The notes below the pieces were generated by a model. It worked only from the letters and a program-made list of their open reading frames with translations. It did no database searches and was not told where the DNA came from. This document shows, piece by piece, positions 2,196 to 59,113 of a stretch of DNA of 64,000 nt. How positions within the stretch are numbered: position 1 is the first letter of the stretch; each line of letters begins with the position of its first letter. The stretch comes from Asterochloris sp. CNOR1 (lineage: Eukaryota > Chlorophyta > Trebouxiophyceae > Trebouxiales > Trebouxiaceae). Position numbers and translations under genes: made by a program. The stretch lies in assembly GCA_963969365.1 (NCBI GenBank), contig OZ017756.1, positions 1,550,001-1,614,000 of the forward strand. Direction: 5' to 3'.

Positions 2196-5100
2196 ATGGC
2201 ATGGGACTTCATGAGGACCAGGCCGCTCTTGGTGTGTGTCTGCCTGATTCATGCAGCAACCATGTGTCAGGTGAGTGATGTGACCTGCCCAACCATATTT
2301 GGCATACAAGGATGGGAGAAATGATGTTGTGCAATCCACGCTGCAGGCCCAGACTGTCAGCTCTCCAGGCGCTGCAGAGCAGCTGTTACAACAAATTTCA
2401 CAAGACCTAGGCCCCTTCAGAGATGGCATCTCCCAAAACATGGTGGAACAGGTATACTGCTCGCAGTTTGACCCCGGCTTCAGAGTGCAGATCATTAATA
2501 ACCGGGTATACATAGCAGGTGAGGCTGCCCTAGGTCGCCTGGTTGAGCAACATGGCAGCTCAGCCCACTCAGATTGACTGGGCGCTCACGCGTAGCTCTC
2601 TCAGGTTGCCTAGCATCAATGGCAATCTATCTGCAGGTGAAATCTATTGGGTCCCTTGGACCCAGAGCAGGAATAGGAACATCAAGCTGCAGCTCCTGGA
2701 TGTTGCACGGCACCATGACCTTCCCGATGTGGACATGTGAGCTGCCCAGCATGCAGTGCCAGGACTGCTCAGAGCTGACTGCAGGCTGCTAGAACTGCCT
2801 CACAGAGTGCGCCATGCTGATGTGCCTGACTTGAAGTGCCTGGCATACGGATCCACCCATGGTGTCTGGAAGAGGTGATACAATTAGTCACCACAAGTAG
2901 TGTAGACGGCAGCTGCTTGGGCTCACGCATATACAGTCTGCTCAGCTCTGGCAATCAGGTCTTGTTTAGGTCTCAGCAGGCTCACATCATCGTTCTGCCC
3001 TGCCTCAGGTACATCAACAGTGATGACTGGGTGTACGAGGCACAGACAGGAGTCAGCAACGCCTGCCCCGACCAGGGCCCCATACTCTCACAGGTGAGCC
3101 CCTGCATGCACACCCAGCCCCACACAGACAAGGCTGGCAAGCACTGCCATGCAGCACAGCTCACCACAGGGAGTCTGCCATCTGTGCTGCATGGTGATGC
3201 TTGATTGGTATCGGGAGCACGGGGCAGCAGAATGGCAAAGAGCGCTGCCCCTAACAGCCTGCATGGTGGACTCTGCTGCATGTTGCGGATGCTGGCTCCT
3301 GAGGATGCATTTAGCTGGTTGACTGTTCTGCAGCCCAATCAATTGGTGATGGACACTGCCTAATGCAAGCTGAGGGTAAATATCCTCACTGACAGCTGTG
3401 TGGAGCTCAAGATTGTGACCCAGTACTAATGATGCCACCCCCTGGCCTGCAGTCCAAGCACAAGTTGCGTGAACATATCATTCTGTTCCCAGACCACACC
3501 TTCCAAGACTGGCAGGAAGATGAGACCCCGGGCTGGGCTGCACTGCAGTATCTGATGCTGAAGGCTGCAGACGTCTTCCCCTGGGCAGGCCGCCTGTCCC
3601 AGGTCTTTTTCAGGGGATCCAGCAAGACAGGTGAGGGGCTTCTCTGGGCTGGCGCCCATGCACGGCTTGCTGGGGCGGCCTGCAGCATGACAGATGCTGG
3701 GGCCATCCTCTGCTGTACAGCACATAAACTCGAGCTGAGCCTCCAGTGCTGTAGCAGGAAGCTTGACCCTGCAGCCTCACAGGCTGCAGGCAGGGGTAGC
3801 TGCACTGCAATGGCAGGCCAGAGCCTGCCTCTGCCTGCAGCCTTGCCTGGGCATGGAAGCAGGAGACAGGCTGGTGCTGTTCCAGCCACAAACCAATTGT
3901 GCGGCTCGCTGCGCAGGCAATAGAGGCATCATTGAGCCCTACGAGCTGGGAACATATGATGGCTTGGATGTCAAAGTCTGGGACTGGGGCCCAGATGTCA
4001 CAAGGTGTGGCCCCGAAGTCGTGCTGATTGACAGTGCACTTGCCTGCATGCTACCCATGGAGACCCCCTCACGATGCCTGATCAAGCCTCACCATCAAAC
4101 AGTGGCTTGCAGATACCCTAGCAGCTCCAGGCTGCTGTAGCATGACCAGTGCCTTGCTCTGCTGAGTGAGCACAGCCCACCATTGCCGGCGCCGCTGACA
4201 CTAGTGCTGCAAGGCAGTTTAAGCACCAGCATTGCTGCCAGCAGCGGCATGACAGATGTGCTTCTCAAAGCCAGCTGCTGCACAACCACTGGGACCCCTG
4301 CAGGTCTGGGTTTGTGGGGCTCCCCGAGCACTGCAGGTACAAGTACCTGCTCAATTGGCCAGGCCACACATACACGGCACGGCTCAAGTCGTTGCTGCTG
4401 TGTGGCTCCGTGGTGATCTTCCCTGACAATGGGTGGTATGAGTTTTACTACCCCCTGCTTCGGCATGGAGAAAATATCATCATGATGGGGCCTCTCACAC
4501 AGCCCAGCGATGTGACACACAACCTCACAGAGGTGGTGCAGGTGGGTGCTCATGTGCAGCTGGTGGCATACGGCTTTGAGTGCTGCTATCTGTCTGGCCA
4601 AACCTGAGGGCTCCAAAACTCTACACCAAGGCAGGGAGCAGGGCCTGGGTCCTGACTGAGTGCGCCAAGTCAGTGGCCCGCATCGCTGGGCATAAGTCGC
4701 TCTGCTCAGCTACCATGTTTCTTATGCTGGCCAGTGGCCTTGCTGGCTGGCACATTGTGCTCTGTTATGCTCTTCTGCCACACCAACAGACCCCTCTTCT
4801 GCAGGTTCTGCATAAGCATGACAGGCAATGTGAGCCGGTTGACGAGTGTGCTGTGACCCTTTAGCAGCCTTGCCCTGCAGGTGCTGCGCAAGCATGATGC
4901 CCGATCTGAGCAGATGGGCAGGGCTGCCCAGCACCTGGCCATGGACGTATTACACCCAGAGAATATCAGAAAATATTGGCTGCGTCTCATTCAGGAGTAT
5001 GCCAAGCTGCAGGCAAGCAAGCACCTGGAGTGCTGCATCTCCTGCACAACCGCTAGGCAGCCTATCTGCAGTGATGCCCCCATATGAGCATCATGGCGTG

Positions 5101-12452: not shown

Positions 12453-13287
12453 TGCCTGCTGCTGCCATCACAGCACCCGTCACAACCAGCAACCTTCCCG
12501 CACCAGTCGCCCCTCAGCAGCCCACAACATCGCTGTGCCCTTGGCGGTGCTGGCCATGACACTGCCTTGCCACCGGGCTGGCCCCACCTTGCTACCGCCA
12601 CTGGGAGGAGCTGCCACTGGCCTGTGCTGGCCAAATGCAGGCAACTCTACATATAGGTCACTGGTGACGATGATGCAGCTTGAATGGAATGAATGGCCCC
12701 CTTCAGAGGCAGACCTGCCCTGCCACATATGGCCTGTGCCCTGCTGCTACCCCATCTCCCAGGTTGGCATGCTTTGCCTTGCAGTGTACAAACACAGAAC
12801 GGCCTTAGCTATGTTACCCACATCAGGTGCAGACACAGCAACTTTCCTGCAGCTCCTAGCTGCTCCTGGCAACACCTGCCAAATGCGTTGACGCTGCAGC
12901 TTGGCCGCGCCAGCCGCAGCGCGTTGCCATCTACTCATACTGCAGCTGAGGCCCAAGATGCTGTCACTTGCCGTTGCTGCTGGCCCCATTCAGCACACAG
13001 CAGTTGCAAGCAGTACGGGTACTGCTGCTCCAGTCACCTTGATGATGTACCACCTCAGCAGGCCCAGCCACCACCAGATGGGCAGCCAACCCCTCAGTGC
13101 AGGACCTGGCCATTAACTTCACATGTGACAGCGGCACTAATGTGGCTCCAAAATTGCTCGTCCCCCCCTTTGCATGCAGGAACAAGGAAACAGAATTGGC
13201 TGTCAAAGCTGAAATGACTGTCGTCAAGCCGGTCAAACATGGTTAGTTTGGCATTTTCGTGAAGGTCACAACTCTGCAGCAGACCAC

Positions 13288-16200
13288 ATGGGAGCAGAGC
13301 AGGTGTACAGCTTTCATTTGGAGGATGTGGCAGATGCTTCTCAAGCAGGCAGTTTGAGGCTGCATGGCATTAGATCCTGGACATGTTCAGCACCCAAGAA
13401 TGGAACAGTGCCCTTTGCATCAGGTCTGCCACCAGGTCATGCCCCTCCACTTTGCATTTGCCTGCCTTGGCCACAGCATGCAATTCACCAGCATGTGCGT
13501 GGCCTTGCAGCTACACAGAGACAGGCTGGCTTTGCAGTGGTGCAGCCTGAGGCTGCAGCCGTCAGCACTGGAGGGCCTGAGGGAGCCGTAGTGGAGCAGC
13601 TAAGGCCGCAGAGCCCAGATCTGCACCCAGCTGTGCCCGGGCTAGCAGAGGAGCTCGCAGCCCTTCAGTCTACGACTCCAAGAGCTGGGCTGGGCCTGCT
13701 GCCAACCTACCTGCTGGGCAAAGTGCACTTGGCGCCGCTGCCATCCAGGTGGGCTGTGCTCGATGCCTGATGAGCCATGACATGTCTCAGGCATATTGTG
13801 CTGCTCATGGCAGCCATCTCTTCTTGTGCCACTTGTGAGGCCTGAAAGATGCATGCGAAGCCCTGCTGCCAGTCTGCCTGATTCGCGCCAATTGCTGCCA
13901 GGATTTCCTATGCACCATTTAGCCTGCCTGCTCGATGTCATTTCCTTGGCCAACTAGTGCGAAGCATGCTCTGCACGATGGGGACTTGCTGAAGTGTACG
14001 ACGGCGCCAAGCCTGTGAGCCACAATAAGAACTCAGTGCTCTGCAGTTGCTCAACGCTGTGGCTCTGTGCTGTGGCTCAGTCGTGTGGTCCCAGTCTGTG
14101 TCTCAAAGCTGCGCCCAGGCCCTGAACCAGAGCTGGCTCCATGCCCTGCAGTCCCAGTGCTGGCGCAGCCAAGTCGCTGGACCGGAATGCTGACCTGCCC
14201 ATGGGGCTACACTGGCTCAACAGGGCTCGCGAGATGCTGGACGACCCCAAGGTCAACCAGCTGCCTGCCATGCTGGCGGCTCAGATGCACCGGCTGATGG
14301 CAGGGGATCTGAACAGTGTTCAGGTTGGTGCAGCTGATGGTGGTCGGATGATGTGACGTTCAGCACAGCGCATGATGAGGTGTGGGCATGAGGGAGGACT
14401 GTGACATATTGCTGCCCACAGGCGCAGCACAGCTGTCTCCAGAGTCATGCGCGGCGAGGGGTATCCAGTGAGCTCGGTGGTCTGAGCATGGCACAGCACC
14501 TGTTTGCAGGTGGACAGCATGCGGAGGGGCACTGCCAAGGAACCAACTGATGCTGTGAGGTGCACACACCCTATCCATTGATTTCATGGCAATCCTCTGC
14601 CGCAGCTCGAGCTGCTTTCACTACCAGGCAGGCTGCACAGCAAGCCACCAGGACGGCCTGACAGCCGCTTGCACCAATGTGTTGCTGTTCCTCCTGTCGC
14701 AGGTTGGCTTGTTCCCCAGCAGGCAGGCAGCACAGCATGCCATTGCGCCAGCCATGGAGCAGCAGCGGCAGTGGTTTGACAAGCTGCGAGCTGAACTGGC
14801 TCCTCCGGCTGGCAAGGGTAGCAAGAAGGGGCAGGGCAGCCAGAGTGGACTCCTCTCAAGTGAGCAACTCACCTTTTGATACATTGGTAGGTATAGACCG
14901 TCAGCTGGTGGCTGCGCATGTGTTGCAAGCCCTTAGCACTGTCCACCTGGCTTGCCGAATGTTGGGTCCCCAGAGGCTGCTGTGACCGCTCTGCACAGTG
15001 TGCACAGAAACTCTGCCAGCGGCGCACAGGAGCCAGGCTGTGCACACAAGATGGGCACTCAACCTGCAGCATGCTGTGAGTCGTGCCAGCCACTCCAGCC
15101 GTCCCACATGGGCGCCTGCCTGCGGCCGTGCAGGCCCTGGCCACTGCAGTGTGCACTGCACAGGCCAGCGAGGTGGCTTCAGGAGCCCTGCAGAACCTGG
15201 CCTCAGGGCTTTGCTCTGCAGAAAGTCATTTGACCTGCTGTCACCTGCACTGCAGGATCTGGCCACCAATTCCCCTGAGCATCAACTGCTTTGCTGGCCA
15301 CGGGCACTAAGCGGGGCGTGGCACTGAGGCGTGCCACCTGACCCTGCAGAATCTGGCCGCAAATGTGTGCACTGCTCAGAGGCTGACGAGGTGCTCTCGG
15401 CTGCCGTGCAGATAGCTGGGCTCTGCTCTGCTTCAAGCTGTCTGACCTGCTGGGGCCTGGCCTGCAGGGGTTGGCCATCACGTCCTCCAGGCGTCAGCTG
15501 GCCTTGGCTGCTGCAGTGCGCATGGCTGCGAGGCGTGCCGCCCTGCCCTGCAGGGTTCAGCCAGCGCTCCCCCCCGGACGTGAGCACCCAGGTCCACAAC
15601 ATCCTGCACAATGTGCAGGCCGCTGTGGGCCACGTGGACCGTTCCCTGCTCCAAGCTGAGAGAGAGCTCCTGGCAGAGTATGTGAAAGGCATCGCACAGA
15701 ATTGGGACTCTGTGCGGGTGAGGTCACTGGAAACTTGCTGAGAGGCCGTGCTGCTTGTCCTGCGGCGTCTGTGGGGAAGTGCTTCCTGGGAATGAGAGGA
15801 CAACCAAACATTGGTACCTGTAGGTGCGGCCAGCAATTTACAACTAGCCAGGGTAGATTGTCATGTAATTGACTGGCACATGAAGGGCACAGGGGCTGGA
15901 TGGAAGACATGTAAGGACTTGACAGGGAGCTGCAGGCCAAGTGTGTCTGAGCATGTTGCACAGAGCTTGGACACTGCAGGCTTGATCAGCAAAGATGGGG
16001 AGTGGGGAGTGCAGAACTCTCCTGAATTGGGCCCTGCTGCAGCTGGGGCCCGGCTCCAGCACTTTGCTGGGCCCAGAATGCTGCTGTCGGCCTCCAGAAC
16101 TCTGCACTTATTCCTGCCAGGGTGTACACCGTGTGGGGGATGGGTGCTGGGTGAACCAGGGCCGGTGCAGGGCATCCCCCCAGGCAGTGTGGAACCTCAG

Positions 16201-19200: not shown

Positions 19201-22200
19201 TCCAACCCCCCAGCTCTGCAAGGCACACCATCTTGGTCACGGCCAGGCTGATGCTGTGGTCCAGCCCTGCGCAGTGCTGCGCCGCCTGTGCAATTGCCCA
19301 TTCCACTGCTTTTAGATCTGCTGTGCAGCATGCTACTGAGTGCTGGTCATGCCTGTACCGGAGCATTGCGCTGCTGAGTGCTGTGCAGCCTGTATCTGTC
19401 TGCTGCAGCGCCCTGAGGCCTGCCATGGAGCATGCTACTGAGCGGTGGCCAGGGCTTGCACTAAGGCACGGCTGCTCAGAGTTGTACAGCGTGCCTGTGC
19501 TAGCGTCAACAAGCCTACTATGGGGATGCTTCGCAGGTGAAAACATGTTGGGAGTGAGGCACACCCGGCCTTGAGCTTTGCAGCCCATGTCAAGCATCAC
19601 TACATACTGAGCAGTTGTCCTGTGCTGCTGCAGCCTACCTGAGCCAGCTGCCTTGCCGGACCAAGCTAGTCTATTGCATGACTTGCTGCCTCATCAGGGC
19701 CTGGCCATTGCTCACGCACTGCGCTACCCAGAATTGCCAGCCCACACGAAGCACCGATTACCATGATGTCTTGCCCTCTGCTGCCGCAGCCTACCTGAGC
19801 CAGGCACCCCACCGACCCATGTCTGCCGCGGGGCATGCCATCGGCCTGACAGACTCAAAGCAGCAGACCTTCAACCTCATAGAGGAGGTGGCGCAGGCCC
19901 TGGGACCCCCACAAGAGGTTCAGACTAAGGGCAGGCGGGCAGGGCCTGGCAATCAATGGCTACCAAGGCCGCTGCAGGGCCTGCTGCCGCGCTCTGGCGG
20001 TGGTGCATCATCTGCCGCGGCCAGATCAAGGGAGGCCATCCGGACTGCCCTGCTGCGCAAGGGTTAGTTAGGGGTTGCTCTGCAAGCCTGTGGTTGGCAT
20101 CACCCTGGGATGGCCCCCTTTTGCGTCCTGTTGCGTATAGGTGTAATTCCATCACATGATCTCTCTCCGTCCGGGAGCCCCAATGGCGGAGGGCTGGTTT
20201 ATTGACACCTGGGCAAACAGAGAGGCTGAGTGTGGCCTGTCATCCCAGGCTGCAGCGGCAGGATGCAGGGCCAGGACCTTCCCCAGTGTCATGCACGTGC
20301 GGTGCAGGCGTCAGCGAAGCTGGCGCCGACAGGATGGTGGAGGGGATCGTGGCGGAGCTGGGGGAGTTCCAGGTGGCTCAGATGCTGGATGCCTGCCGCC
20401 TCAGGCAGCGGCGTCAGTGGGAGGCAGCTCACGGGCCCATTCGGCTGTGGGATGGGCAGGAGTGGGTGCACATGCTGGAGGGCTTCAGGCCTGCCATCAT
20501 CGGCGTCATCAAGCTGCTCAACACCCACGTGAGCTGCTGAGGGGGGCTGGCCGCAGCTGCAGTACTGCTCCCCGCAGCTCAAGGGCCTTGTCCTGCTTTC
20601 ATCATGCGGGCAGCCAGGGCTCAGCCACTGCAGCGTGCTGGCCCCTGCCTGGCAAAGGGCGTGAGGCTTGCAGTGACGGGCGCCGTGGAGCTGATCAACA
20701 ATCTCCTCACTCTGTCTGCTGAGGCCTAGCCCCTGCATGGCTGCTGTGGGGTACAGGTCTCACGGGGACAGCTGGCTGCTGGTGTGCAAGGCTGCTGCTG
20801 GCTCTGACGGCTGTGCTGCTCAACATGTGTCAGGGTGATGCTGCGCCCTTGCGGTCATTAAACAGTTGTTTTGGTGGCAAACACTGCAGAAGTCGCTCTC
20901 ATGATGCTGCTCAATATATGTGGGAGCTGGGCTGCACAGGATAGGCGGTGCTCATGTCCTGGCCCCTGCGTGGCTGCGAGATGCCATGGCACTTTCGAAG
21001 GCCATCGTGGTGAAGCTCGGAACTTGCAAGGCGCCAATCATCGTGGTGCTGTGAGACCCTGAGCTGCTGGAGAGTGCTGATGGGGGCTTGGCCCCTGCAC
21101 ATGCTGCTGCAAGCCAACTCTGCCGTCAGCAGCTGACTGCTGGAGCATCCCGACCTACAGATGGATCAGCACGGCCTAGCAAGGCTATGCAGGGGCCGCC
21201 CTCTCCTGCAAAACAGCAGCTTGTACACAAAGGCCCTGCCTGCAGTCCAGGACATAAGCACCCACCAGTGCCATGCCCAGCTCGGTCACGTCGCACAGTA
21301 TTGACAAGGGTCCTGTACTGCTGTGCAGCCCAGCCAGTGGGAGAGGCTCTCACTGGTGCACCAGAAACGGCGGCAGGCCCTTGGGGAGGCAGCAAAGAAG
21401 GGAGATGGCAGACAGAAGGTGCCCCAGCTGCCGGCCAGTCCCTCGCAGCCATCCGGCTCTGCCGGCCAGCAGCACCAGCCTGCTGCCTCAAATCCTGCAA
21501 CTGAAGAGCGGCCTCACGAGCAAGATGGTGGCATACAGAGTGTGAGTCTTGCTGCAGGGCTGGCTTCATCCTGCCCCCCTGCAGCCTTGCTGCACATCTG
21601 GCATCTAATGCCTATGAGTGATCTGGACAGGTTGGACGCTGCAGAAGCCAGACAGGCGGGTTGGCATCATGCACTTGATGGCTGTGATGCAACTTTGTTG
21701 ACAGGTGATCCAGACGTGCTGAATGTTGCAGGAGCCAGACAGGCAGGCAGCTGAGCCCCAGTCACGACCAGGCCCTACGAGCCAGCCTCGGGGCTGCCTC
21801 ACGTGGACATATGCCAGAGATGTAGATCAGTGGCTGCTTAAGGACTGCACAGCAAAGGGAGATCAGGAGGAGCAGCATGCCGTCACCCTCTCTGCTGACA
21901 TCAATCAGGTGAGACAACAGGCCTACCACCAAATCATATTGTGGTGGGCATGAGCGGCTTGCACAGACCGGCTGGCAAACACTGCATGAGCCTGCCGAGC
22001 GCATGTTTGCAAAGGCTGTACCTGCACCATCATGTCGGCCTCAACCCTGTGAGCAAGCAGCACGTGCAGGGCAACCTCGGCTTCCTCCACTCAGCTTGCG
22101 CGCCTACCCTGCATCTGCCGCGGCTGCTGCTTACTTGTGCCGCTGCCGCTGACGCCAGTTGCTGCTGCCACTCCTGTTGTTGCTGAGGGCCTGCCTGGCC

Positions 22201-30600: not shown

Positions 30601-31782
30601 ATCCCCAGTGTTGCCCCTTCAGGCGGGGACATTAATTTTGCAACAGCAACCATCAGCCAGGTCGAGCAGTGCCAGCAGGCTTGCAGCACTGGGTGCGCTG
30701 TGCAGTTTGAGCACGGAAAGGTGGCGTACAGGGTGATCTTGGCAGGTGACAAAGGGCCCAGGCAAGGGCAACAGCAGGGACTCACAGATCGACATCTGGC
30801 AAGTCCACCCGCTCAGCCAGCTCAATGAGCTGTGCCTTCAGGTTGCGATGATGTGTGCCAGTCCACTGAGGGTTAATGACTTCTCCAACCTGCACGGCAC
30901 ACATGGCACTCAGCAGCAGGCATCAGGGCGCCTCCATGTCTTCGTGGCAGTGGCGTTTGGAGGGGCACAGGCAGCATCCAGCAGGGTGAGTGGCCCCAGC
31001 AGCGCACAGCAGGGCAGTAGCTCGGCACAGTGGCAGCCAGCTGCAGGTGCAGCTGCTTTGTGCAGTTTCACTCACCACGTACAACTGATTGCTGATGATC
31101 TGCAGACGGAAGCCCTGATAGTTGCCAGTACAGTACACCTGCACAAGCCATGGAGGGGGTGGTTGAGCCGTCCCAGAGTGGAGGCCATGTCTGATGCATG
31201 GAACAGGAGCCAGCAGGGGCTTGCATGGACGCTTACCTGCTCAACCATGGCCTGGCTGATGCCGTTTTTGAAATGCGCCAGATCCTGGCGTGCGCGACTC
31301 AGCAGCTGTGCCACCTGAGGGGAGTGGGGCCCCTTCACGTTCAGCGCAAGCGACGCGGGCCGCTCCATGGAGACCAGGGCTGCGGCCTGCTGCTTTGGCT
31401 CCCTGCCAGCTGGATCTGCGGTGAAGTTGACTGTCGCCTTCTGCGAGTTCCTGTGGCGCTCCGCCACACGACTCTGCTCCTGCTTTTTGTCTGAAATGCT
31501 GTGGGCGTGCGGTGTCAAGTTGGCTGAGGGAACATTTGGAGAGGTGTCCAGATGCTCTGTAGCTACTTGAATGTGCAGCTGCCGGTCTGTGTGGAGAGCA
31601 GGACTGTCCGCACCCATCAAAGGCCTGGGCTGTGGCGGAGTAGCCCCATCAGGCACAGGGCTGCCATCAGCCAAGACTTGCTGACTCGGGAGGGAACCGG
31701 CATGCTTCACAATCCGCTGCCAACGGTTTGCAGCCGCTTGACTGGTGCACAGCAATGCCAGCAACAGACATCTGGTTGCCAT
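27627..31782 (-). CDS. CAP10/GT90-family glycosyltransferase, copy 2
   Basis: Paralogue of the gene at 2196-5815, on the opposite strand. Exons: 31782-31237, 31138-31076, 30889-30786, 30543-30459, 30264-30211, 29855-29732, 29237-29141, 28936-28865, 28667-28596, 28396-28309, 27932-27627 (536 aa). It starts with a signal peptide (MATRCLLLALLCTSQAAA) and a stem-like region of about 100 residues. Shared landmarks: GISQAMVEQ-VYC, LPDVDLYINTHDW, CPDQGPIISQ, CPDFTFQDWQ, LFRGNLATG, EHCHWKYLLNWPG, the RLKSIMACGS block and PDNGFHEFW. The C-terminus has CDICGKHWPEGDP and stops shortly after, without the Ala/Gln tail. It has four introns that copy 1 lacks (VEQ/VYC, TFQ/DWQ, NTYS, EFW) and lacks the GC-AG intron of copy 1. 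Probably ER/Golgi luminal; the acceptor is unknown. Confidence 0.9.
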
Positions 31783-31999
31783 CGAGGGCGCTGATGGTAA
31801 TTTGCCCCCTCTACTGCCCGATAATCATGACCTCATCATGATTCAGAGAGCAGGGAATAGCAAACTGCAACGGTAACAAAAGTGCAGACTTGGACAGAGA
31901 ACTTGGATTTCATTTTAACTTCTTTTGCAGTTGGTCGTTTGTGGTAGCAAATCCAGGCCGCGCAACTTTGTCCAGTCATGTGCAATCGTCGTGCTCCAT

Positions 32000-37900: not shown

Positions 37901-40900
37901 TCATGTCTCTCCTCTGCTGGTCAGCAGCAGGGTCTGCACAGAGTGGCTTCAGCAGGAAGTCAGGGAGCCCAGCATGCTTCCAGAATCAGCAGGAGCATCA
38001 GCAGGATGTCTTCACACAGCCAAAGGATGCTTCTTGCTACAGGTCACAGATGAGGAGTACACAGACTTCTTCAAGCAGACCTTCAAGGAGTTTTTGGCCC
38101 CTCTGGGCACCTCCCACTTCAATGTGGAGGGCACCATCGAGTTCAGCGCTATGCTATTCGTCCCCGGCATGGCCCCCTTTGAGCGTCAGGACATGATGCA
38201 GCGCAGCCGCAACATCAAGCTGTTTGTGAAGCGGGTGTTCATTTCTGATGAGGTGCGGCAGAGGATAGTGTCCTGGCGGCTGTGCCTTGCACCTGGCTAA
38301 TCCTGTGTCAGCCTGCTGCTGGATGTTCAGCACAACATTGACCTGCTGCACGCCTTGGAGGGCACAACATGTGTGCCTCTGTGCACTGACTTGATGGTTC
38401 GACACCCTTAGGCTGTTGTTACTGACATATTGGCCGCCCGCAGACTGCACTGCGCCACAGAACGGGACTGCCAGCACAGCTCGCACCACCTCCTGCGTCG
38501 CTGGGATGCGCACTGATGCTCATGCTGCGCTGCAGTTTGATGAGGACTTGATGCCTCGCTACCTGAGCTTCATGAAGGGCGTGGTCGACAGCTCAGACCT
38601 GCCCCTCAATGTTTCCCGGGAGATCTTGCAGGTGAGATCCTGCAGGCTTCTGGCTGTTGATCATGGGAAGCCCATGTTTCTGCTGCCTCACATCCATCCT
38701 AGACGGGGGCTCCCTGCTCTAGACTTCCACAGGTGACGCACTGCAGAGCGCGAAGGTTACTTCAGAGAGTTTCTGCTGGTTGGGGGGCTGTTTTGATAAG
38801 GCATCAGCCACCTGCGAGAATCCTGAGGCGTCCCTGGTTACTGCCTGACCTGACAGCTATGTGAACTGCTCAAATGTTGCGGAGTCCCCACCCCCCCCCC
38901 CCCCCCCAAATTTTGCCCGCCTGACACCTGCCTGCAGGAGTCCCGCGTGGTGCGCACCATCAAGAGGCAGCTGGTTAAGCGCAGCCTGGAGCTACTGAAG
39001 GACATTGCTGCCCGTCCATCTGAGGACCCCCGCGGAGACTACAGTAAGTGGTGCTTTGCGCCGTACGATACTGCTGCATGCCCTGTTGTTGTGCGCAGCC
39101 CAATTAGACCAAATGTTGGGCAGAGGCTGTTTCTGGGCGCTGCTTGTGTGGGCTGCCCAGCAGGTGTCGCATCAAACCTGATCTCGAGGAGTGCGCGAGG
39201 CAGCTGCCTCTGCTGCTCAAATGCAGCAGTGGGACATGCGTGGCGTACATTCTGCCAAGGGGATGCTAGTCAAGCTTTGCTGCAGCCCTAAGCGCCCTGG
39301 TGCTGTGTGTATGCAGCCGACCATAGAGGTGCCTTGAGACCTTTAAGCGCTCTGGCAGGCTGGAGCCTCCTGACTTTTGGAACCTCAGCATTTGCAGACA
39401 CCCTCTGGGACACCTCTTGGCACAGCCTCATGCATTCTGTCGGGTGTGACGCTCGACCCTCTGCTCCATGCCTGCAGACACCTTCTGGGATGCCTTTGGA
39501 CGCAACATCAAGATCGGTGTCATCGAGGACCAGGCCAACAGGGATGCCCTCACTGACCTGCTGCGCTTCAACAGCAGCCAGGCCCAGGAGGAGAGCATCA
39601 GCCTGAAGACCTACGTCGACAGGTGAGACCGCGGCACCGTTGTATACGTGCTGGCTGTGTAGGGGGTTGTGTACCCCTCCTTGCAGTGCCCACGCTTGCA
39701 CAGCATGCATCTGCAGAGGTATGGTGACAGGTGAAGCTGTGACAGGGGCCGGCCTCTGTCTTGGCTCTTGCCCTACAACAGAGCTGCTGCAGCGCCTACA
39801 GCTGCTCAGCATCATGCAAGCACCAGCTGAGCCACTTGGCAAGTGACAATAGTAGCAGACTACTGGCGTGCTTTAAAAGGGCTGCACAATGCAGCCCTGG
39901 GCATTCATCTGGCTGAAGCTGTCTGCAATCCACCTCCTGAATGCATGCCACCACCCTGTGTGCAGGATGAAGGAGGGGCAAACAGGTATCTACTACATGG
40001 CTGCCGACTCCATGGCCGCAGCTGCCTCAGCGCCATTTGTGGAGAAGCTGGTTCAGAAGGGTTATGAGGTGAGGTGCCGGAGGCCAGGCTGCCAGCGGGA
40101 GCTGCAGCTTGCAGCTGTCATGGCACCCCTGAGGCAGGTTCATTTGCCAATGCACAGCTGCCAGCGTGAGGCTGCCATCACTCAGTGGGGAGTGGCATGA
40201 TGACGTCTGCTTCCACCTCCCATGAGTGCCTCATGTGGGCAGAACACCCCACGCAGCATTGCGTCTGCTGTTGCATCTCACCAGTGCTTGTGGCGCCCTG
40301 GGCTGCATGCGTTCTGCTGTGCCCCTGCACAGCAGGAGCTTTCCCAACACTGTTCGTGCATGTCATCCTGATGACAACTCTGCATTGCTGCAGGTGCTGT
40401 ACTTTGTCGAGCCCATCGATGAGGTGGCCATGCAGAATGTGGGTGAGTTTGCCGGCAAGAAGCTGATCGATGTCTCGCGGGAGGGAGTGGACCTGGGGTC
40501 AGATGCTGAGGAGGCCAAGAAGGCAAGTCGCTAGCTTTCTGAGGGCTGGCAGTGCAGTGGGTGGGGAAGCCAGGAGCAATTATTTGGACTCGAGGTCATT
40601 GCATTGCACCTGCAGGCTGTGGAGATGGCTAAGAGCCTGGAGCCCCTGATGTCCTGCATGAGCGCTTTTGCCAAAGCAGGGGCCGGCGCGGGCAAAGTTG
40701 TGACAGTACTCGGTGGTCGCAGGTTGGGAAGGCATCTGGAACCTGAAGCCCCTGGTGCTCCTCACTTCGGATGTGCTGGCAATGCTTGCTACTTGATAAG
40801 CATTAATAATCAGGTTGAGGCATAGTGTGCAGGCATCTCGTACAGCCAGCTACAATGGCCAGGCCCATTGTCTCTCATGGCTGCAGGCAGTGCAGGTCGC

Positions 40901-43586: not shown

Positions 43587-46500
43587 ATGCATGGCTGGAC
43601 AGCTCTGGCAGTGGCAGCCCTGACACTCCTGCAGGGTGAGGTGCTTCCCTGGCCGTTGAGCCAGTCTCCATGCTGTTGTAAGCAGATTGGGTCATGTGAC
43701 TGGTGGCACAGCTGTCAATGCTTCACAGAAGCTTGTTGACTGATCAACGGGCATGCAATGGGCCAGATGCAGCCAGGTGGCATGTGCTGAGGAGGTTCAG
43801 CAGGCTCTGAAATCATCAGTCAGCTGTGACATATGCGCCTGCATCCTCCCTGCAAACTACCTTGCCAACTGCTGCACACCCTGCACAGCAGGATGGCCAG
43901 CTGGCGGGATGGAGTTCATGTTAAAGCTGCTATCCACTCATGCACCTGGTCAGAATTCCCCTTACCCTGGCATATGTATGCCTGGTGCAATGCAGAGGTG
44001 CTTGATCAGGCGCATCACCTGCCTGCAGGTGTTCTGTCACAGACTCTGGTGTCATCGACAGCAGCGCCTGTTGTGCTGGCCTCGCCACAGCCAGGCTCCC
44101 CGGTGCCGGTGGCAACAGCTGTGCCCATTGTAACACCCTCCCCCAGGTGACTGCTGCTGCACAGCATGCTGCCACAGCCATGCTGGTTTCATCTATGCAG
44201 CAGCACTTGCTGTCAAGTCCAGGGTGCTGCTCTACTGCTCTTGCACATGATTGCTTGGGGACAATGGCCATACTGTCCTAGCCAGCCAGACCTGTGGCAG
44301 CTGGCTGTCATTGCCCTGGCAGTTGGGAAAGTTCTACAGTACACAAGCTACATTGCTTGCCTGCTTGCAGTCCCACAAACCAGGTGGTGCAGCCCAGCGG
44401 GGTGTATGCCGTCTCAGGGCCAGCCTCCATGCCCAACGCAGACCCCGCCGACTTCCCCCTGCTGACAGGTGTTATTCCGGGGCTGAATGTCACCTCAGCC
44501 AATGCCCCAGCTGGCACACTGCAGCTGCTGGGCCGGTGGTTCCCAGACGGCCAGCCCAATGTCTCAGTCTTGCAGCTGCTCCCTGGTGGGGCGCCAGTGC
44601 GCGCCAGCTGGAGTGGCAGCATGATCCTGGGGTCCTTCTCAGGCCCTGGCGCAACCTGCAACCTCCAGGTGAGTGGCAGCTGCACGGGTATAGGTGCTGT
44701 CTGCCGTCTTAGGTTGCGCGGGGCTCCCCCATGGGTCCTGCAGTCTCTGTGTGAGAGGCAGGGTTCTGGGCTCCTTACTGGCACTGGCACCACCTGCAAT
44801 CTCAGCCTGGCATCAGGCGGCTGCTGTTTGCCTCATCAGCGTGGCTGCCGCTGCACATGCACTTAGTGGGAATGTGAGGGCCTTGCGCGTCACATGTCAG
44901 CGTACGAGGCTGCAACTCCTGGTGCACCTGCATGCTGCAGCTGTGTGACGGCTTCTCGTGACATTGGTTGTCCTCAACAAAGCGCCAGCCTACCCTGAGT
45001 GCTGTCTAAACCGATCGCCCAAAAGCTGCTGAAAGGACGTAACACATCTTTCTGAATGGCTGCAGGACGCAATCAATCGTGGCGCCTTTGGGGATTACCT
45101 TGATATCTTTGTGGTGAGCAGCCTTTAGGGCGTGGCACAAAGGGCTGCTTGCCCTGTGCCAGCACAGGGGCCAGAGAGCCTTCAGCTGCCTGCTGCTGTC
45201 TGGCCTGGCCACTACATCTGCTGCCAAGTATCTGAGTGAGCGCCATGCACTCCTGATTTGTCATTTAGACCTCTCCTAATTGCTGCAGGACAACATGACC
45301 ATTCCACTCCATACAGTGCAGCTGACAAGTACACCTTCTGATGTCCCACTGTCCCTCCAGCCACTCAACAACTCCAGTCACCTGTTCAAGATCGTCAAGT
45401 GAGGCACATTGGGCACCAGTGAGCTTGGTGCCTCTGTATGCACCAGCTCCTGCTGCACTGCAGCGGGAGGACAAACAAAGGACTGCTAGCATCAGACCTG
45501 GCTGCCTCGGTCTGCCCCAGCTGAGGCAAGGGCTGCTCTGCTGCAGCGACCCCTTTGCTGCCAGGTGCAGCTTCCCAGTGCAGTGCCAAATCTGCTGTGC
45601 TGCCCAACATATGGGTGCCAGCCGTGCTGTTACGCTGCATGTTGGAGGGCCCCCAGCTTGCCAGACCTGTGATTGCACGTCAGAGCTGTGCTTTGTTTGT
45701 CTGCAGGCGCACAGAGGGCGCCGTCAATGACATGGTGCTCACACGCTGCAGTGGCAATCTGCAGGTTTGTATTGGATTTGTGGTGCGGCTGTCATATGTG
45801 GTCCGTGTGGAGCTAAGTACCCAAGGCCTAGCTTGCCAAGTGTCAGGCGGCCCTGCAAGCAGCCCCACAAGCAGCGCCTTGCCAACAGAAGCACCAGTTG
45901 TAATGGTGTGCTGCCCACAGCTCTTTGAGTGCAATTGCAGACATGGGTGTTTGAATGAGGGTCTGGGATCATGGCCCCTGATCACTGTGCAACGGAGCCT
46001 GTAGCTGGTGCCACTGCAGGTCCCGCCCTCTATGCCAACACGGCAGATCCTCAGCATTGGGGACTCGATAGCAGCTGGCTTTGGCGTTATGTGTGCCAAC
46101 TCCTCCGGCGGCGGTCTCAACCCCTATCAATTTGAGAATGCCCAGCTGACAGCGGCCTCCCGCCTGGGCGGCATGTTTGGGGCAGGCGTGACCATCATCG
46201 CTGAGAGTGGCGGGGGTAAGGCTCTGCCTTCACGGTGTCTGCTTGTGAGCCTGCTTACTCTCTGAGGCCAGCTGCAATTTGGTGTGGCAGCAGGCCATAA
46301 GGAGCTGCGCTTGCACAGGGACTGGGGCCCCTGCATGCATTGAACTGCAACAGCATCCTGCTGGTCATGGAGTGTGCCTTCAGCAGACGCTTGCGACAGC
46401 ATTCATGCCTCAGCCCATGCTGCAGGCGCACAGCAGAATGATAACTGCACCAGCACAGACACTGTGCCTGACATATTCCCTCTGGCCTCAAGACAGCTTA

Positions 46501-51600: not shown

Positions 51601-53719
51601 CATCCTGACCTGAGTCAGGCTGTCCCTGCATGGCCTGCCCTCTAGACCTGAAGGCCAACAATTCGAGAGTCTCCTTTTGTGTCTCCCCAGCCCTTCCAAC
51701 TTGTGCAGCATGCTTCCTGTGAGCATAAGCCCTGGATCAAGCCATGGGCCTCACCTCGTTTTGCCTGGCCTGCCTGTGCGCTGGTGCTTTCAGCGCTGTG
51801 CTGCCGATTGATCAGGTGTCCAGAGAGCCCCTGTTGGGGCCACACCCTGTCCCGGGGGACAGGCTTGTTACCTGCAGTTGGACTGCCATGGCGCCCTTGC
51901 ATGTCGTCTGCGTCTGACTGAATGTGATCCCTCTTGCCCTGTACAGGTTGGCGACTCCATCAGCGCAGGTTTTGGCATCGAGTGTACCGCGTCTACCATG
52001 AATCCACCCAACCTCTACACCTACGAGAACTCCTACCTGACCTCTGCCTCAGACCTGGCCATCAGCTTCGGGGCATCGCTCACCATCATTGCCGAGAGTG
52101 GGGCCGGTGAGTCAAGTTCGAATAAGAGTTCGGACACAGCTTTGAGACATCCTTGTGCACCATTTAACAGAAAGACACTAAGAACACCACATGTAGTACA
52201 CCCTCTGTACTCCAATCTCCATGCATTCTGCTTTGCTTACAACAAACTGCTTGAAAAGTATGGCATGCAACCTATCTCAGCCTGACCATGCTAGCTCTCT
52301 GCCTGTTGGGCTGCAGCAAGCGCCCGAGCACCAAGTGCTGGCCTGCAGGTGCCTCCATCAATGCTGACTGCTCCACCAACCAGACAGTGCCTGTTCTGTT
52401 TCCTAGGGCACTGGAGAGCGTGTCGACTGTGTACTCTAACCCAAACATGGACCCCCCACAGGTAAGGAGGTGACATGCTCCCTCTTGTGCTCAGCGTTGC
52501 ATTGTTTGCAGGGGTGCTGGAGCGTGCTTTTGCATGTGATGCTGTGGCGCGCCCGCGATGCTGTAGGACACCGTGATGCTGTATTAGAGTGCTGCACCTT
52601 CAAGAGGTGCTGCATCATGCCCTTGGGATTTTGCATCCCTCTGCCTCTCTCCCAGTGCTGCATAGCTTTGCTGTATTGGATTGCTGCACATTCATCAGGT
52701 GGTGCAGCCGTGCCTGTAGGCATCTTGCATCCCTCTGCCTCTCTCCTGCTGCTGCATAGCTTTGCATAGCTGCACCAGGACTAGCTGCTGCCTTGATCGT
52801 TCACTGTGCTAAAATCCGGCTGGCTGAGCAGCTTCTGCTGCTGCGTTGAGTGACTTGGCCATGTATTGGCAAATCTGAAATGTGATTTGGACCACCTGCA
52901 GCTTGTCCTCTGCAATGTTAACACAAACGATTTCAATTGTGGCAACCAGCCAGGCCAGCAGTTTGTGCAGGACTACACAACCCTTGTCCAGGTGCTGCTC
53001 ATGCCTTTTTGCTGTCAGGAAGTGAAGGCTGCATCAGCTGCATGCCTGAGAGTGCCCCTCAAGAGCACTGCTGCTTTGCCTGGGACTTAAGTGTGCCCTT
53101 CCCACTCTTGTTGCGAGCCTTGGTGGTACTTTGGCAATGCAGGAAATCAGGAATATGTTTGGACCAAGCCCTGCCATCATACATCAGGCAAGCAGATTGC
53201 ACTGCTGATGGGTCAACTGCCCAGGGCTGGCCCCTGGCAGAATCTAGGGACCTGCGCTTCGGGTGGCCTCGTATTTCTTGCAGTCTGCAGCAGTCTGGCA
53301 TGCTTGCAAGTCAGGTTGTCTGAGCAGCAGGTATTGCTTGAAGCATCTTCATGGCATTTTGTCGAGCACTAGAGCCGAGGCCTGCTGACCCCAGGCCTGC
53401 TCTGCTGTCCTGCAGGTTGGCCCCATGCTGCAAGCCAGCACATCAGACCCCATAAGCGCCCTGCTGCAGCAAGTGATCAATAAGTTCGCCAGCATGGGGG
53501 ACACCAAGCAGTCTCTGTTCAACTTTGCTTATGACGACGGGTCCAGAGGCTATGGTGAGCTGCAGCTGCACCTTACTGATCTGGCCAGAAAGAGCACAAC
53601 TTTCCATCACTGTTTCTGTTTGCGTCGCAGGTTGCAACATGCACCCCAATATTGCCACTCACCAATACATGGCTGATCAGATCAGGTCCACCGTGGCCAA
53701 TGTCACTGGCTGGCAGTGA
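48629..53719 (+). CDS. GDSL/SGNH esterase, carbohydrate esterase family 2-like, copy 2
   Basis: Exons: 48629-48710, 48980-49207, 49777-49908, 50155-50318, 50621-50649, 50925-51050, 51451-51544, 51947-52106, 52349-52461, 52902-52991, 53143-53187, 53416-53554, 53631-53719 (496 aa, phases agree). Signal peptide LAVLALLAGLLLTCPG, then about 120 residues of Ser/Ala/Gly/Thr-rich linker, longer than in copy 1. N-terminal domain: LQLVGRWVDA, RASWSSSAVLGSFTG. SGNH domain: VGDSISAGFG, LCNVNTNDFNCGNQPGQQF, FAYDDGSRGYG, GCNMHPNIATH. Copy 2 has an intron directly before GDS, whereas copy 1 has it 12 residues earlier. It also has an extra GC-AG intron at 53188-53415 (CAG|GCAAGC). Extracellular acetyl-glycan deacetylation is inferred from the family. 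Confidence 0.85.
52600..52770 (+). repeat. direct repeat in an intron of esterase copy 2
   Basis: TTGCATCCCTCTGCCTCTCTCC followed by GCTGCATAGCTTTGC occurs twice, about 95 bp apart (near 52631-52675 and 52727-52765). It has no coding similarity to the flanking exons. Confidence 0.85.
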
Positions 53720-54187: not shown

Positions 54188-57100
54188 TCACACCCGCAAG
54201 ATCTGTGTCTTGCTGCCAAAACAAATGGCCACCCAGTCTGGCTGGGCCATGGACCACTGCAGGTTGTTGACCTCTGCGCCCGCGCTGTAGGCCAGAATAG
54301 GGTCAAGCCCAGGGTCCAGGTTGGTCTGACTCATGGTAGTCAGGTCCCAGATGAGCGCCTGGTGATCCTCGCCAGCTGTGCAGATGTGACAGGAGCTGTG
54401 AGGCGCCCATGCCAGAGAGGTGACAGTCCCCTGATGCCGCTGCAGCTCTGCCACCGGCATTGTGGGATACCTGCGATGCGGCAGAGTTTGAGAAGAGCAG
54501 AGACAGGGCAGCAGCTGTCAGGAATCATGCCAGCAAGGTGCCCGCTGCCTGAGGCTGTTGCTTTGGCTGCTGGTCACTGGATTGCAGCAATGTGCGTCTG
54601 CTGGGAGCAGGGACAGTGAAGGAGCTATGGGGAGCTGATGTCAATGGCATGCCTGGTGCCAGCGCCTGGCCACCGGCATGTCACACTGCCTGCACTGCCA
54701 CTGTGGCGGATGTGTGCCCTATGGCGAAGCTATCACAGGACGTCCTGCACTGTCAACTTTGGAACGCTACTTGTGAGCAAAGTAGCCATCTGGCAGCACC
54801 TTATCGTGCAGACCGCGACTTGCTCCATGCTGGACCAGCACACTTCAGGTCTAGGACTGCTTACTAAAATTGCAGCACCACAGCCTTCATCGAAGGCCAT
54901 GAGCACTGTGACTGTGTTGCTGTGTTGTCTTTCAGCACTTTGATGTGCAATGAGACCACAATTTGCTCAGAGTTGCTTACCGTATGTCCAACACCACAAC
55001 TTTCATTGAGTCCATGAGAACTGTGGCCATGTAGCGTGGGTCCTGCTTGTTCCAGCCCAGGCGCATGAGGGGCGTGCCTTGTGGGGCCTCATAGATGATG
55101 GTGGAGTGCTCCTTGTCCCTGCATGCATAGCGGCAGCAGTTCAACGTGCAAGCAGGCTGCAACTTTGATGCTGCATGTCAAATGTCTGACAGTGCAGGGC
55201 AGCAATCCTGCCGCACTGTGTGAAGTGTGTCTGGTCCCTGCGGGTAAAGGCTGAAGCTTTCAGGCAGTGGGGCCAGCTAAATAATTGTTCAGCTTCAAGT
55301 GGGCTCTGAGCCAGGTACTACAAAGCAGTGTGGGTCAAGTCGGGCAAGCAACAGAGTGGCTTGTCATGCTGCAGCTGAGGGTCTCCACTCTGTCTCACTC
55401 AGGTTCGCCTTGCTGCCAAGGGCCAGGCTGCACCCCGGGGATACAAATTGCATTGGAGGCGCTGATCAGCACAGGCTAGCTGACCAGCCAGGCAAGGCAG
55501 CAGGCGTCACCTGAGGGCCCCTCCGAAGTGCACCAAATGCACCTGAGGTCAACACTCAGATCAGATGTGTGTATGCACATGGGGACACACTCCCACACCT
55601 CCCCAGGGTATGCTGAGAGCAGAGTCCACAGCTTGATTGGCTGTTTGAGCGCAGCAGAACTACCTGTGACCAGATGAGAGAAGCTTGCAGTTGCGCAGAG
55701 GACTAGGTCACGCCCCTTCCCAGCCCAGAGAAGCAGTAGGCACCACATCCAGGGCAGGGAGTCAAGGGTGCAGCATGGCCTCAACCGCTGACAGGCGCAG
55801 AGACAGGGACAACCATTCCCTCTAGGCACGGCCACAGCAGTGTCCAAGTGCCAGGGAGACTCACCGCAGATCGAAGACTCGTACAGAGCCATCAGCCGAC
55901 ACAGAAGCAAAGACGCCAACCCCTCCCCAGGCAATGTCGTACACTGCCTTGTCATGGGCAATCAGCTGCGTGTCCACCACACCTTTCTGCAGGCAAGGGC
56001 AAAGCCAGGTTCTGGCATTGTGCAGCCAGGTGGACGTCCCAGGAATGCTGTACAGGTGTGCAGTGTGCTGCAGATGCCCGACAGGAACAGGTGATGTGCC
56101 AGCCTGCGCCACCTCAAGACAGGCCAGCAAGATGGCCTCCAACCGCAGGACAGCCACCCGCCATGCAAGCACAGAGGGGTCATGTCCAGTGCTGCCTGTT
56201 GAGCAGGCGCACCAGCGGCTCCGTATGTGCACATCAGGGCGGTCTGTAACACATGAGATGGCAATGGCAGCAGGCAGGCACGCTGCTTGAGCAAGTGCAT
56301 GACCATAATTGTGAGTCAAACATCTGTCAAAGGCGGGGGTTGCCTTGATGTCCCAGGTGATGCATGTAGTGGCCTCTCAGCCGGTCATGCAGGCCGGGCC
56401 CCTCCCAGGTGCTCTCTGCAACAGCACACATGCTGCAGGTAGTGGCAGCACTCGAAACGCAGACCAGACTGGTCCCAGGGAAGTCTGCTGATAGCACCAT
56501 TGCTAGTGGCAATGCAGGCCAGGCCAGTCCCTGACAACTGCAGGTGGTGCTACAGCTGCCTGTGCAGGCTTGCCTCAATGTCCCAGATGGTGCAGGTAGT
56601 GTCAATGCTGGAGGTGCCCAGGCGTTTGGGGTCTGTTTCATTCCAGTCGAAGGAGGTCAGGGGGGCGCAGTACTCTGAGTTCTTGTTCTGCAGCACAGCA
56701 CAAAGAACTTGGGGCATACATCGTCTCATCGCGCTCAAATCGTGTCTGGGAGCAGCACTCCAAGTTTGATTACCGGTCAGTCAGTTAGCCAGTCTGCACT
56801 GGTGCATGTGTTGGATGCATGCGTTGGCTGGGGCAGCAGACGCAGTGCCTCTGAATCACCCCATGGAGCGGTGAGAGAACTGCGCATGCACCCTGTCGGG
56901 CAGCGCAATGGCGGGTGACATGCAGAGACTTGCAAGAGCGGCCCTTTGCATTTGACATCAGCTTCTGCAGCAGCCCCTCAGACTACCACCCAGCAGATCC
57001 CCACATTGTGTGACAACTTCCTCAGGATGACATCTCCCTCCTGCAATGTCCACAACAGCAGCCATCCAATGTAGGACATGCCTGCTACTTAAATGGACCG

Positions 57101-59113
57101 CACCTTCAGCAGCAGAGCAAACAGTCGTGATACCAGGTGGAGAAGGGCCCACAGATGGGCCAGATGCACATTCAGGGTTCTTGCAGCACTGCTGAGCACC
57201 ATGCTGCAGCACCCAGATGGTTGAGCAGCTTCTGCAGGACAGTTCGTGCCGGGGAGTGAAGTCCCAATCATTGAGCAACTTCTGAAACATGCCCCCGCCT
57301 CCTGGACAGGCCAGGCAGGGACCCTGAGCGGGCCTCTGGCAGGTCAGTGCTTGTTGCCAGCTGGACTCGCTTCCTTTGGTGAGCAGCTTCTGCAGGATGA
57401 CGCTCGCTTCTGAGGGGGAGGTAGATGTAGTGGAACCAGCCATGCAGGGCCTCACATACAGCCTCAGGGTCAGCATGATGATCCGCACCTTTCAGACCAG
57501 CAAAGGACTTAACTTGCAAGCAGATTGACAGCAGCGTAAGCCTTGCAGCCACATCAATCATCACCCTGCTCCTGGCCCACATTGCTGAGAACCTTCTACA
57601 GGATGACAACCTCCACGTGAACAAGCCAATCAAGAATGAGGGACATCAAGCAGACCCCAGGCAGGCCCAGTGCTTGATGCACTCTGCCCCTGTCTCACAT
57701 TGTTGAGCAGCTTCTGCAGGATGACTCCTTCCTCCTGGACGAGCCAGATGCGAAGGTAGTCCCCTGTGGTGGCCATCAGGTCGGGGTGATGGGTCTCCTT
57801 GCTGGGCAAGAACATGATCTTGGTGGCTGGGTAGGGGTGGGTGAAGGTCAGGCGCTGGTCGCAGATGAAGCGCCCATACTCGTCATCCACTACACAGCAG
57901 CAGGCATGTTCTGCAGGTGTGTGCACGGCAAAACTCAACAGCAGGCATCTTGCAGTGATTTGCATGGTGGAGGGCTGTCTGCTGCAGGCTGTAGGCGCCT
58001 GGGCCCAGTTTGAAGTGCCCAGAGTCATCATTCACCTTTAGAGGGTTTGGTGCTTTGCAGTGATGACTGCAGCACTAAATGATACTCAGGGCCTGAGCAA
58101 CAGTGTGCCCTTCTGCTGTGTTGCACACCTCAGGCAGCAGATGTCATGCAGCGGCCCATACTTATCGCCAACTGCATAACAGCAGCAGCCGTTTCTTTGA
58201 AGTGTGCTGTGAAAGTGTGACAGAGGGCTGCCTGCTTGGGGGCAATGTGAGGCGTCCATGATCGTGCAGGCAGGATTGCTACAGCCAGTCTGTGCTTCGG
58301 CCGGGATGGAATGCAGCATTTGGTGATGTCCATGACCGGGCAGCAGGTTTATGTTGCCAGGCCAGGCCAGGGGGCGAGGGGCGGCCGGGGTTTTGAAGCT
58401 GTGCACTTGACGGGTGCACTGGTGAGCTCATGGCGGCCTGCTGTGCACCACACGCCCAGGCTTAGCCTGTGCAACTCTAGCCTGGCTGTCTCACATGTGA
58501 CCAGCTCCACCCTGTTCTGCACCTCCTCCTTGAAGGTGCCCACCGCCAGCCTGAAGCGTTTGTCCTCCCGATTCTGCAAGTCAGACAGGACTGCATGGGC
58601 AATCAGGTGGCAAGGGGCCTGGGCCAGCAAGAGCTGCCTGCTCAGCACACAGGGAAACTTCACATCCTCCCAGGTTCTGCATGGCTTTGTGATGGCAAAT
58701 GTGCTGGCTCAGCGAGGGCTGCCTGCTCATCAGGTGGCAAGCGTGCAGGACTGGCAGCTGGGCAGTCAGCAGCTCGCGTGAGGCTGGAATGCTCAATTGG
58801 TGAGCATTTGTGGGAGGCAGCTGTGCTGACAGCCATGAGCCAGCCAGGCTTGAGCATCAAGCCCAACAGGCCTGCAGGCAATAGCCCTGGCAGCAGAGCA
58901 CGGCTCAACATAAGGAGAACGACGCAGTTGCTACTGCTGAGCATGTCTGAGGCTGTGTGAGCAGAGCTGCAGACTCACGCTCCAGTTCATGCCAAAGACC
59001 GTGTCGTCACATTCATAAGTGTAGATCTCTGCCTGTTTTTCTGGCCCTGCAGAGACCTGCAGGCGGGCACTACTGCTGATGTCTGGGCAGCAGCAACTGC
59101 TGGCCACTTGCAT
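54188..59113 (-). CDS. WD40-repeat protein of the LWD/TTG1/AN11 (DCAF7) family
   Basis: Beta-propeller scaffold. In plants, relatives regulate the circadian clock and epidermal fate; in animals they scaffold kinases. Exons: 59113?-58979, 58573-58495, 57889-57699, 56687-56574, 55986-55865, 55118-54981, 54470-54188. Collinear with Arabidopsis LWD1: [136 protein letters not shown], ending in SKTQILRV. The N-terminus upstream of AEIYTYE is uncertain; an in-frame ATG at 59113 was taken provisionally. The intron after 56574 has a GC donor (GAG|GCAAGC). Three introns contain copies of the upstream exon's end. Confidence 0.92.
54858..54921 (-). repeat. copy of a WD40 exon end with its donor
   Basis: On the plus strand, CTGCTTACTAAAATTGCAGC then ACCACAGCCTTCATCGAAG parallels the real border TTGCTTACCGTATGTCCAAC then ACCACAACTTTCATTGAG (54973-55011). 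The GTAAGC donor and about 45 bp of exon are both copied into the intron. Confidence 0.9.
56341..56453 (-). repeat. two copies of a WD40 exon end in the following intron
   Basis: The real exon end encodes [10 protein letters not shown] (56574-56603). A copy at 56341-56375 could encode [10 protein letters not shown], and another at 56417-56453 could encode [11 protein letters not shown]. Both lie within 240 bp downstream of the real donor. Confidence 0.85.
57001..57631 (-). repeat. five degenerate copies of a WD40 exon's donor edge in one intron
   Basis: The real exon end (plus 57694-57750) encodes [12 protein letters not shown] then GTGAG. Similar sequence recurs at 57577-57631, 57378-57420 (could encode [12 protein letters not shown]), 57268-57314 ([11 protein letters not shown]), 57219-57253 and 57001-57047 ([11 protein letters not shown]). 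The shared core on the plus strand is GAGCAGCTTCTGCAGGATGAC. Confidence 0.92.

Follow-up and report, generated by a model that had tools for sequence, protein, structure and literature searches.

Many introns of Asterochloris sp. CNOR1 contain decayed copies of the edges of their own exons. They are probably traces of old, short tandem duplications by which introns already present grew longer, and not of new introns or mobile elements. They were described by an earlier note on a stretch of 64,000 nucleotides of contig OZ017756.1 (C11:1550001-1614000), referred to here as the window. The genome comprises 56,383,464 bp in 21 contigs, with C1 to C18 measuring 2.0-4.5 Mb each, and our sample consisted of the window, one 10-kb stretch from each of C1-C18 (18 in all) and two further stretches, 264 kb in total. 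A 244-kb subset was used for the self versus non-self test of exon edges, the excesses by class of edge, the AGGT register test and the passage of neutral copies through the gene finder. The 264-kb set was used for counts of local repeat pairs, retention of copied sites, comparisons between introns, iteration of copies, divergence and decay by codon position. The statistics exclude loci L001 and L022-L029, which overlap the window or were fetched by gene family.

Direct copies at short range and at exon edges

In the window alone, exact 12-mers shared at offsets of 50-200 bp exceed background more than tenfold, in direct orientation only and at short range only. Across the 264 kb, and independently of gene models, local repeat pairs 50-500 bp apart numbered 204 in direct and 6 in inverted orientation, and direct pairs at 3000-3450 bp numbered 9. 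Pairs reaching a blast score of 18 (match +1, mismatch -1) occur in 21/21 stretches, and no inverted pair in the 264 kb reaches that score at 50-500 bp once low-complexity sequence, which was excluded from all repeat pairs, is removed. Blast returns no self-repeats less than 50 bp apart, leaving the 25-50 bin empty, and a diagonal scan covered these. The orientation and range of the pairs are those of local tandem duplication.

A direct copy is present in 100 of 592 introns and an inverted copy in 0/592. Introns longer than 450 bp hold a direct copy more often (37/103) than those shorter than 120 bp (10/139), as would be expected anyway from their larger size as targets. About 12% of intron bases lie within a recognisable duplicated unit. 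The density of offsets peaks at about 70-130 bp, in rough agreement with the period of about 80-160 bp given by the earlier note, but the median is 144 bp, the middle half spans 93-229 bp and a tail extends to about 500 bp.

Exons and introns were delimited with a hidden Markov model gene finder trained on the sampled sequences with no outside labels. It converged to 533 introns, with the donor signal CAG/GTGAGC and the acceptor signal CTGCAG/G (the stroke marking the splice site), and when retrained on 264 kb it gave 590-592 introns with a mean length of 279 bp. Twelve predicted exons from the middle part of HSP90, spliced in silico, align with a solved HSP90 over 468 residues. Pfam domains were found in 8 of 10 submitted models (glycosyltransferase 90, HSP90, methyltransferase, GDSL esterase with CE2_N, rhomboid with ThiS, KAS III and amino-acid transporter), and the eight include the WD40 model, whose beta-propeller match is weak. 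Some genes are fused or split in its output: HSP90 is divided among three models, one of which also takes in esterase 1, and WD40 likewise among three. The gene finder also missed one WD40 intron, and its intergenic share of 8% is probably too low.

To compare exon edges with introns, edges of up to 57 bp, with the splice consensus omitted, were aligned locally to their own and to length-matched non-self introns; introns shorter than 90 bp and exon pieces shorter than 25 bp were excluded. Scores of at least 16 against the own intron were obtained by 30/391 donor edges (1.0 expected) and 26/384 acceptor edges (1.3 expected), so the likeness of introns to their own junctions withstands the self versus non-self comparison once the consensus is set aside. 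Against the inverted own intron, 0 donor edges and 1 acceptor edge in the 244 kb reached that score. The own intron outscored all 30 non-self introns for 54/391 donor edges (12.6 expected) and 33/384 acceptor edges (12.4 expected) over all stretches, and for 10/115 (3.7 expected) and 5/110 (3.5 expected), respectively, in the window alone, where the excess is thinner; the strength of the edge signal thus comes mostly from other chromosomes. Each of the six genes named in the earlier note carries at least one copy at a blast score of at least 18, and copies of both edge types are found on both strands, as that note had stated.

The chance level was estimated over the 264 kb by counting edges matched in inverted rather than direct orientation: 29 versus 110 at scores of at least 15, 12 versus 84 at 16 and 4 versus 54 at 18. 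Similarity extends beyond the splice consensus into the intron in 5/26 donor cases (0.7 expected) and 6/18 acceptor cases (0.6 expected). Among the 110 edges with a score of at least 15, 16 have two to four copies (12 with two, 2 with three and 2 with four), compared with 2/110 in the inverted control. The median aligned length is about 50 bp, and the near ends of the copies lie 1 to 104 bp from the junction (52/105 at 8 bp or less). Exon interiors (60-114 bp in) reached scores of at least 14 in 3/168 and 4/161 cases, against 2.9 and 2.7 expected; this comparison, the target of which omitted the 60 junction-adjacent intron bases and so missed most possible copies, was not used.

Why exon edges stand out, and the age of the copies

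The excess amounts to 9.7% at intron starts and 6.2% at intron ends (n = 309 each), and to 13.7% (n = 253) and 8.3% (n = 238) at exon edges. The observed ratio of exon to intron edges, 1.39-1.65, derives from the 244-kb set, and the simulations with which it is compared used the 264-kb set. Simulations with randomly placed duplications gave ratios of 1.0-1.3 at ages of 0.1-0.4 substitutions per site and 1.6-2.1 at 0.15-0.5. Because an exon copy hardly changes, pairs that contain one remain visible longer, and random placement suffices for the exon-edge excess if the duplications are fairly old. Under these simulations, then, a process targeted to junctions is not required.

Several points weigh against intron lengthening by randomly placed tandem duplications. 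Simulated ages that start from zero give ratios of 0.6-1.2, below those observed, and age ranges older than 0.15-0.5 overshoot them (2.4-8.3), so the fit rests on an age range that we chose; moreover, ages of 0.15-0.5 fit the divergence only roughly (Kolmogorov-Smirnov p = 0.024). Among 132 pairs at score 18, junction-junction (JJ) pairs number 11 against 2.3 under random placement, junction-intron (IJ) pairs 31 against 18.5, exon-intron pairs 39 against 31 and intron-intron (II) pairs 31 against 52. The JJ class includes copies that the gene finder had mistaken for exons. Most pairs align over only part of their offset (at least 60% of it in 19 of about 204); full tandem units are thus seen in a minority, and decay may account for the rest. 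Judging from the inverted control, about 12 of the 84 exon-edge copies with scores of at least 16 may be chance matches. The gene models are computed predictions, and the duplications are read from one genome.

Duplication might instead be directed to splice junctions, with R-loops, reverse splicing or CTGCAG microhomology raising its rate there. Such a process would fit both the excess of the observed ratio over the simulations with ages from zero and the enrichment of junction-spanning classes over random placement. However, random placement with old ages reaches and exceeds the observed ratio, intron-only duplications are common, and the near ends of the copies lie at the range of distances from the junction given above. 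We therefore consider junction-directed copying unlikely.

The duplications seem to be mostly old, with few recent ones. None of the 65 exon-edge copies aligned over at least 35 bp differs from its source by less than 10%, whereas uniform ages predict about 21% (Kolmogorov-Smirnov p = 7.6e-7). Among blast pairs, which were counted differently, divergence below 10% was found in 2/65 exon- or junction-to-noncoding pairs and in 0/19 noncoding pairs. Young cases do exist: L015 2540-2648 at 97%, L005 8524 at 94% and the HSP90C copy at 35832, identical at 27 of 29 bases and shorter than 35 bp. Chance matches (perhaps 12/84) inflate the old end of the age distribution but cannot empty its young end. 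The scarcity of young duplications would reflect either an old burst or copies already diverged at birth, and this age gap is the unexplained part of the pattern. Paralogues of the GT90 and esterase genes were considered for dating and rejected as too diverged: they are about 72-79% identical in short alignable stretches, and their introns do not align.

The copies decay as non-coding DNA, with mismatches at the three codon positions of 0.214, 0.213 and 0.259 and gap lengths that are a multiple of three in 19/169 cases. These values bear on the idea that the copies are what remains of alternative or mutually exclusive exons that had been duplicated. In favour of this, some copies with intact splice sites were taken by the gene finder for exons, and at L005 AGCATCAAG together with the acceptor region is present three times. 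The third-position excess is nevertheless only small, gaps are mostly of one base and the copies take in the exon edge to varying depths, all of which makes exon remnants very improbable. The three L005 units (8524-8578, 8680-8729 and 8810-8865) are 89-94% alike and make up a young junction array; the first two were called 9-base exons.

The earlier note had offered intron birth or growth by duplication of junction segments, and only growth agrees with our results: the copies are direct and at short range, homology runs past the consensus and 16/110 edges are iterated. Whole introns might instead have been born when exon segments bearing AGGT were tandemly duplicated (the Rogers model), as PMC4974935 describes for single cases; the presence of tandem duplications and copied exon edges would fit with this. 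The model requires similarity in a specific register, between exon end and intron end and between intron start and next exon start at an offset of one intron length, and scores of at least 11 in that register occurred in 0/529 introns with 1.39 expected, so that we hold this origin to be extremely unlikely. Introners or other dispersed intron-making elements deserve mention since introners are reported (PMC9860276) primarily from fast-evolving lineages, green algae among them. When 539 sample introns were compared with one another, only weak matches between genes appeared (6 on the plus and 3 on the minus strand at E ≤ 1e-3), and a 397-bp esterase 1 intron that carries a copy has no match but itself in the 56-Mb genome. 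Near-identical introns in many genes, as introners would leave, were thus found neither among the 539 introns nor for the one intron compared with the whole genome, and we give this explanation almost no weight. With AGGT birth, introners and coding exon duplicates each failing their tests, local tandem duplication remains.

Copied splice sites and individual copies

According to the earlier note an acceptor or donor is usually attached to the copies, which proved too strong a statement. Among copies with a score of at least 15 whose alignment comes within 8 bp of the junction, GT is retained in 6/29 donor copies and AG in 9/24 acceptor copies. Identity at the copied dinucleotide is lower than in its flanks for donors (25/58 versus 65/116, p = 0.07) and acceptors (28/48 versus 92/120, p = 0.016), with p for this dip ranging from 0.016 to 0.20 over five thresholds. 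When neutral copies were simulated and run through the same gene finder, they kept the dinucleotide at frequencies of 0.45 (donor) and 0.53 (acceptor), with 10 bp rather than 8 allowed to the junction. By eye, however, about 8-10 of the 17 JJ and EJ pairs are copies with intact sites that the gene finder called exons. Such copies drop out of the retention count and adding them back removes most of the effect, so selective disarming of copied splice sites is only a suggestion. The many decoy splice sites expected by the earlier note exist in part: some copied sites are intact and misled the gene finder, which took the copied acceptor of GT90-1 as real and called the WD40 copy at 57562-57628 a small exon, but most are already broken.

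Table 1. Exon-edge copies, their sources and intron-only duplications in the window (window coordinates; offsets and periods in bp; scores against the inverted sequence in parentheses)
Feature	Gene	Position	Source	Strand	Offset or period	Identity	Score	Remark
Acceptor CTGCAG and first ~30 bp of next exon, copy	GT90-1	4799..4835	4875..4911	+	76	76%	19	
True acceptor and exon start	GT90-1	4875..4911		+				PF05686 match
Exon-start copy	Unrecognised gene	14617..14647	14712-14742	+	95		21 (13)	Predicted protein without Pfam family
Acceptor-edge copy	Unrecognised gene	19615..19647	19771-19803	+	156	91%	27	
Exon-end copy, donor side	Unrecognised gene	20630..20700	20456-20523	+	~177		19.5 (15)	
Exon-end copy	Methyltransferase (PF13578)	23908..23963	24188-24246	-	~280		22.5 (11.5)	
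Exon-end copy, donor side	Second GT90 gene (PF05686)	30635..30704	30794-30865	-			18 (12)	
Exon-sequence copy, acceptor side		33026..33091	32895-32959	-			24.5 (9.5)	44 bp from junction
Exon-end copy	HSP90C	35832..35860	35705-35733	+	127	27/29	25 (11.5)	Young
Acceptor region and exon start (MTKEDLL), copy	HSP90C	36122..36171	36226-36273	+	104	80%	25	
Intron-only tandem duplication	HSP90C	37771..37899		+	period 69	77%		Both copies within one intron
Exon-start copy	HSP90C	39399..39430	39479-39510	+	80		20 (blast); 14 (10) in second scoring	Exon backed by HSP90 alignment
Exon-end copy, donor side	Esterase 1	44753..44803	44611-44665	+	~139		24 (11)	
Intron-only tandem array	Esterase 2	52577..52765		+	period 92-94	80-82%		Tandem Repeats Finder
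Donor-edge copy, GTAAG kept	WD40 gene	54858..54920	54974-55035	-	116		25	Read by eye
Donor-edge copy, copied donor intact	WD40 gene	57562..57628	57680-57746	-	118	78%	37	
Exon-start copy, acceptor side	WD40 gene	57936..58031	57807-57886	-			19 (11)	

Further details concern several of the copies listed in Table 1. The Pfam GT90 match (PF05686) of GT90-1 falls on the source exon at 4872-5021 (C11:1554872-1555021), with none listed at the copy. An HSP90 alignment backs the source exon at 36226-36273, and the gene finder placed the copy at 36122-36171 outside the gene. By eye, this copy has the canonical CTGCAG and its source edge appears to use CTGAAG; the copy may have the better acceptor. The intron that holds the WD40 copy at 54858-54920 was missed by the gene finder, and the copy was labelled as outside the gene. 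Within the donor-side copy of the unrecognised gene at 20630-20700, the subpair 20479-20523/20656-20700 has a blast score of 19.

Some further observations concern the genes and contigs themselves. The predicted gene at window positions 12811-22986 has 30 exons and encodes 904 amino acids with no Pfam family. The two GT90 glycosyltransferase genes of the window (2262-5100 and 27627-31617) belong to a family with 19 exon matches genome-wide, 14 of them on C4, C11 and C13. Two neighbouring esterase-like genes lie at 44000-47700 and 48629-53719; the second, the only one scanned, matches CE2_N and GDSL, and only two short stretches align between the two genes (81 and 91 bp, 72-73%). A run of 23 G occupies window positions 7165-7187. 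Spliced genes and an rbcL on contig C21 mark the organism as a photosynthetic eukaryote. Contig C19, 43 kb long, carries the genome's best protein-kinase match (C19:10167-10916) within an open frame of 713 codons.

Probable intron growth by duplication and its relation to known systems

Intron lengthening by short tandem duplications, the explanation that we consider probable, would proceed as follows. Short DNA segments would be duplicated head to tail at many places of the nuclear genome. A duplication within an intron would make it longer and be harmless, and one that spans a junction would be tolerated provided that the outer site continues to be the one spliced; what had been exon in the inner copy would then turn into intron. 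Each junction-spanning event would thus add one period to the intron and leave behind an exon-edge copy with its splice site. As the intronic copy decays and the exon copy stays under selection, the pair would remain recognisable longer than an intron-intron pair, so exon edges would seem singled out because selection holds the exon copy. Three elements of this account are inferred, namely a single contiguous tandem duplication in each event, use of the outer sites and neutral decay; slippage, microhomology joining or filled-in staggered breaks may be the molecular cause.

A further-reaching interpretation, which we regard as possible but doubtful, is that a past genome-wide wave of tandem duplications of about 100 bp was a main route of intron growth, that exon edges date these events and that the surviving duplications are those in which the copied sites were weak or were knocked out at GT or AG by selection. 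If the scarcity of young copies holds genome-wide, the process was formerly far more active. Copies of intron within intron soon fade, which makes intron lengthening difficult to observe. An exon-edge copy keeps a reference under selection and can therefore clock duplication events that would otherwise be lost. The copies also carry a warning for annotation, since a trained gene finder here mistook copies with intact sites for exons.

Among the open-access titles and abstracts searched, none described copies of exon edges as a feature of intron growth across a whole genome. Gao and Lynch (2009) reportedly found that short duplications inside genes are common and connected such internal gene duplication with exon duplication and intron creation; the present case differs in that decayed copies lie inside introns. 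The AGGT intron gain in a potato RdRp gene (PMC4974935) is alike in involving tandem duplication at exon-intron structure and splice signals inherited from the duplicated segment. In contrast to the single cases reported there, the copies described here occur in 100/592 introns; a further difference is that an intron already present lengthens, the copied exon edge turning into intron sequence, and no new intron was seen to arise.

Rogers and Bendich (2025; PMC11782384) describe direct repeats at exon-intron borders that measure 4-30 bp (11.4 on average), lie for the most part no more than 10 bp from the border and are read as insertion traces. Our copies share with these the direct orientation and the position at exon-intron borders, but have a median alignment of about 50 bp, one copy within the intron and an offset of about 100 bp or more. 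Extra donors or acceptors near the real site also occur as tandem alternative splice sites (PMC8055015); these form a close tandem, whereas the copied sites here are at least 63 bp away and mostly decayed.

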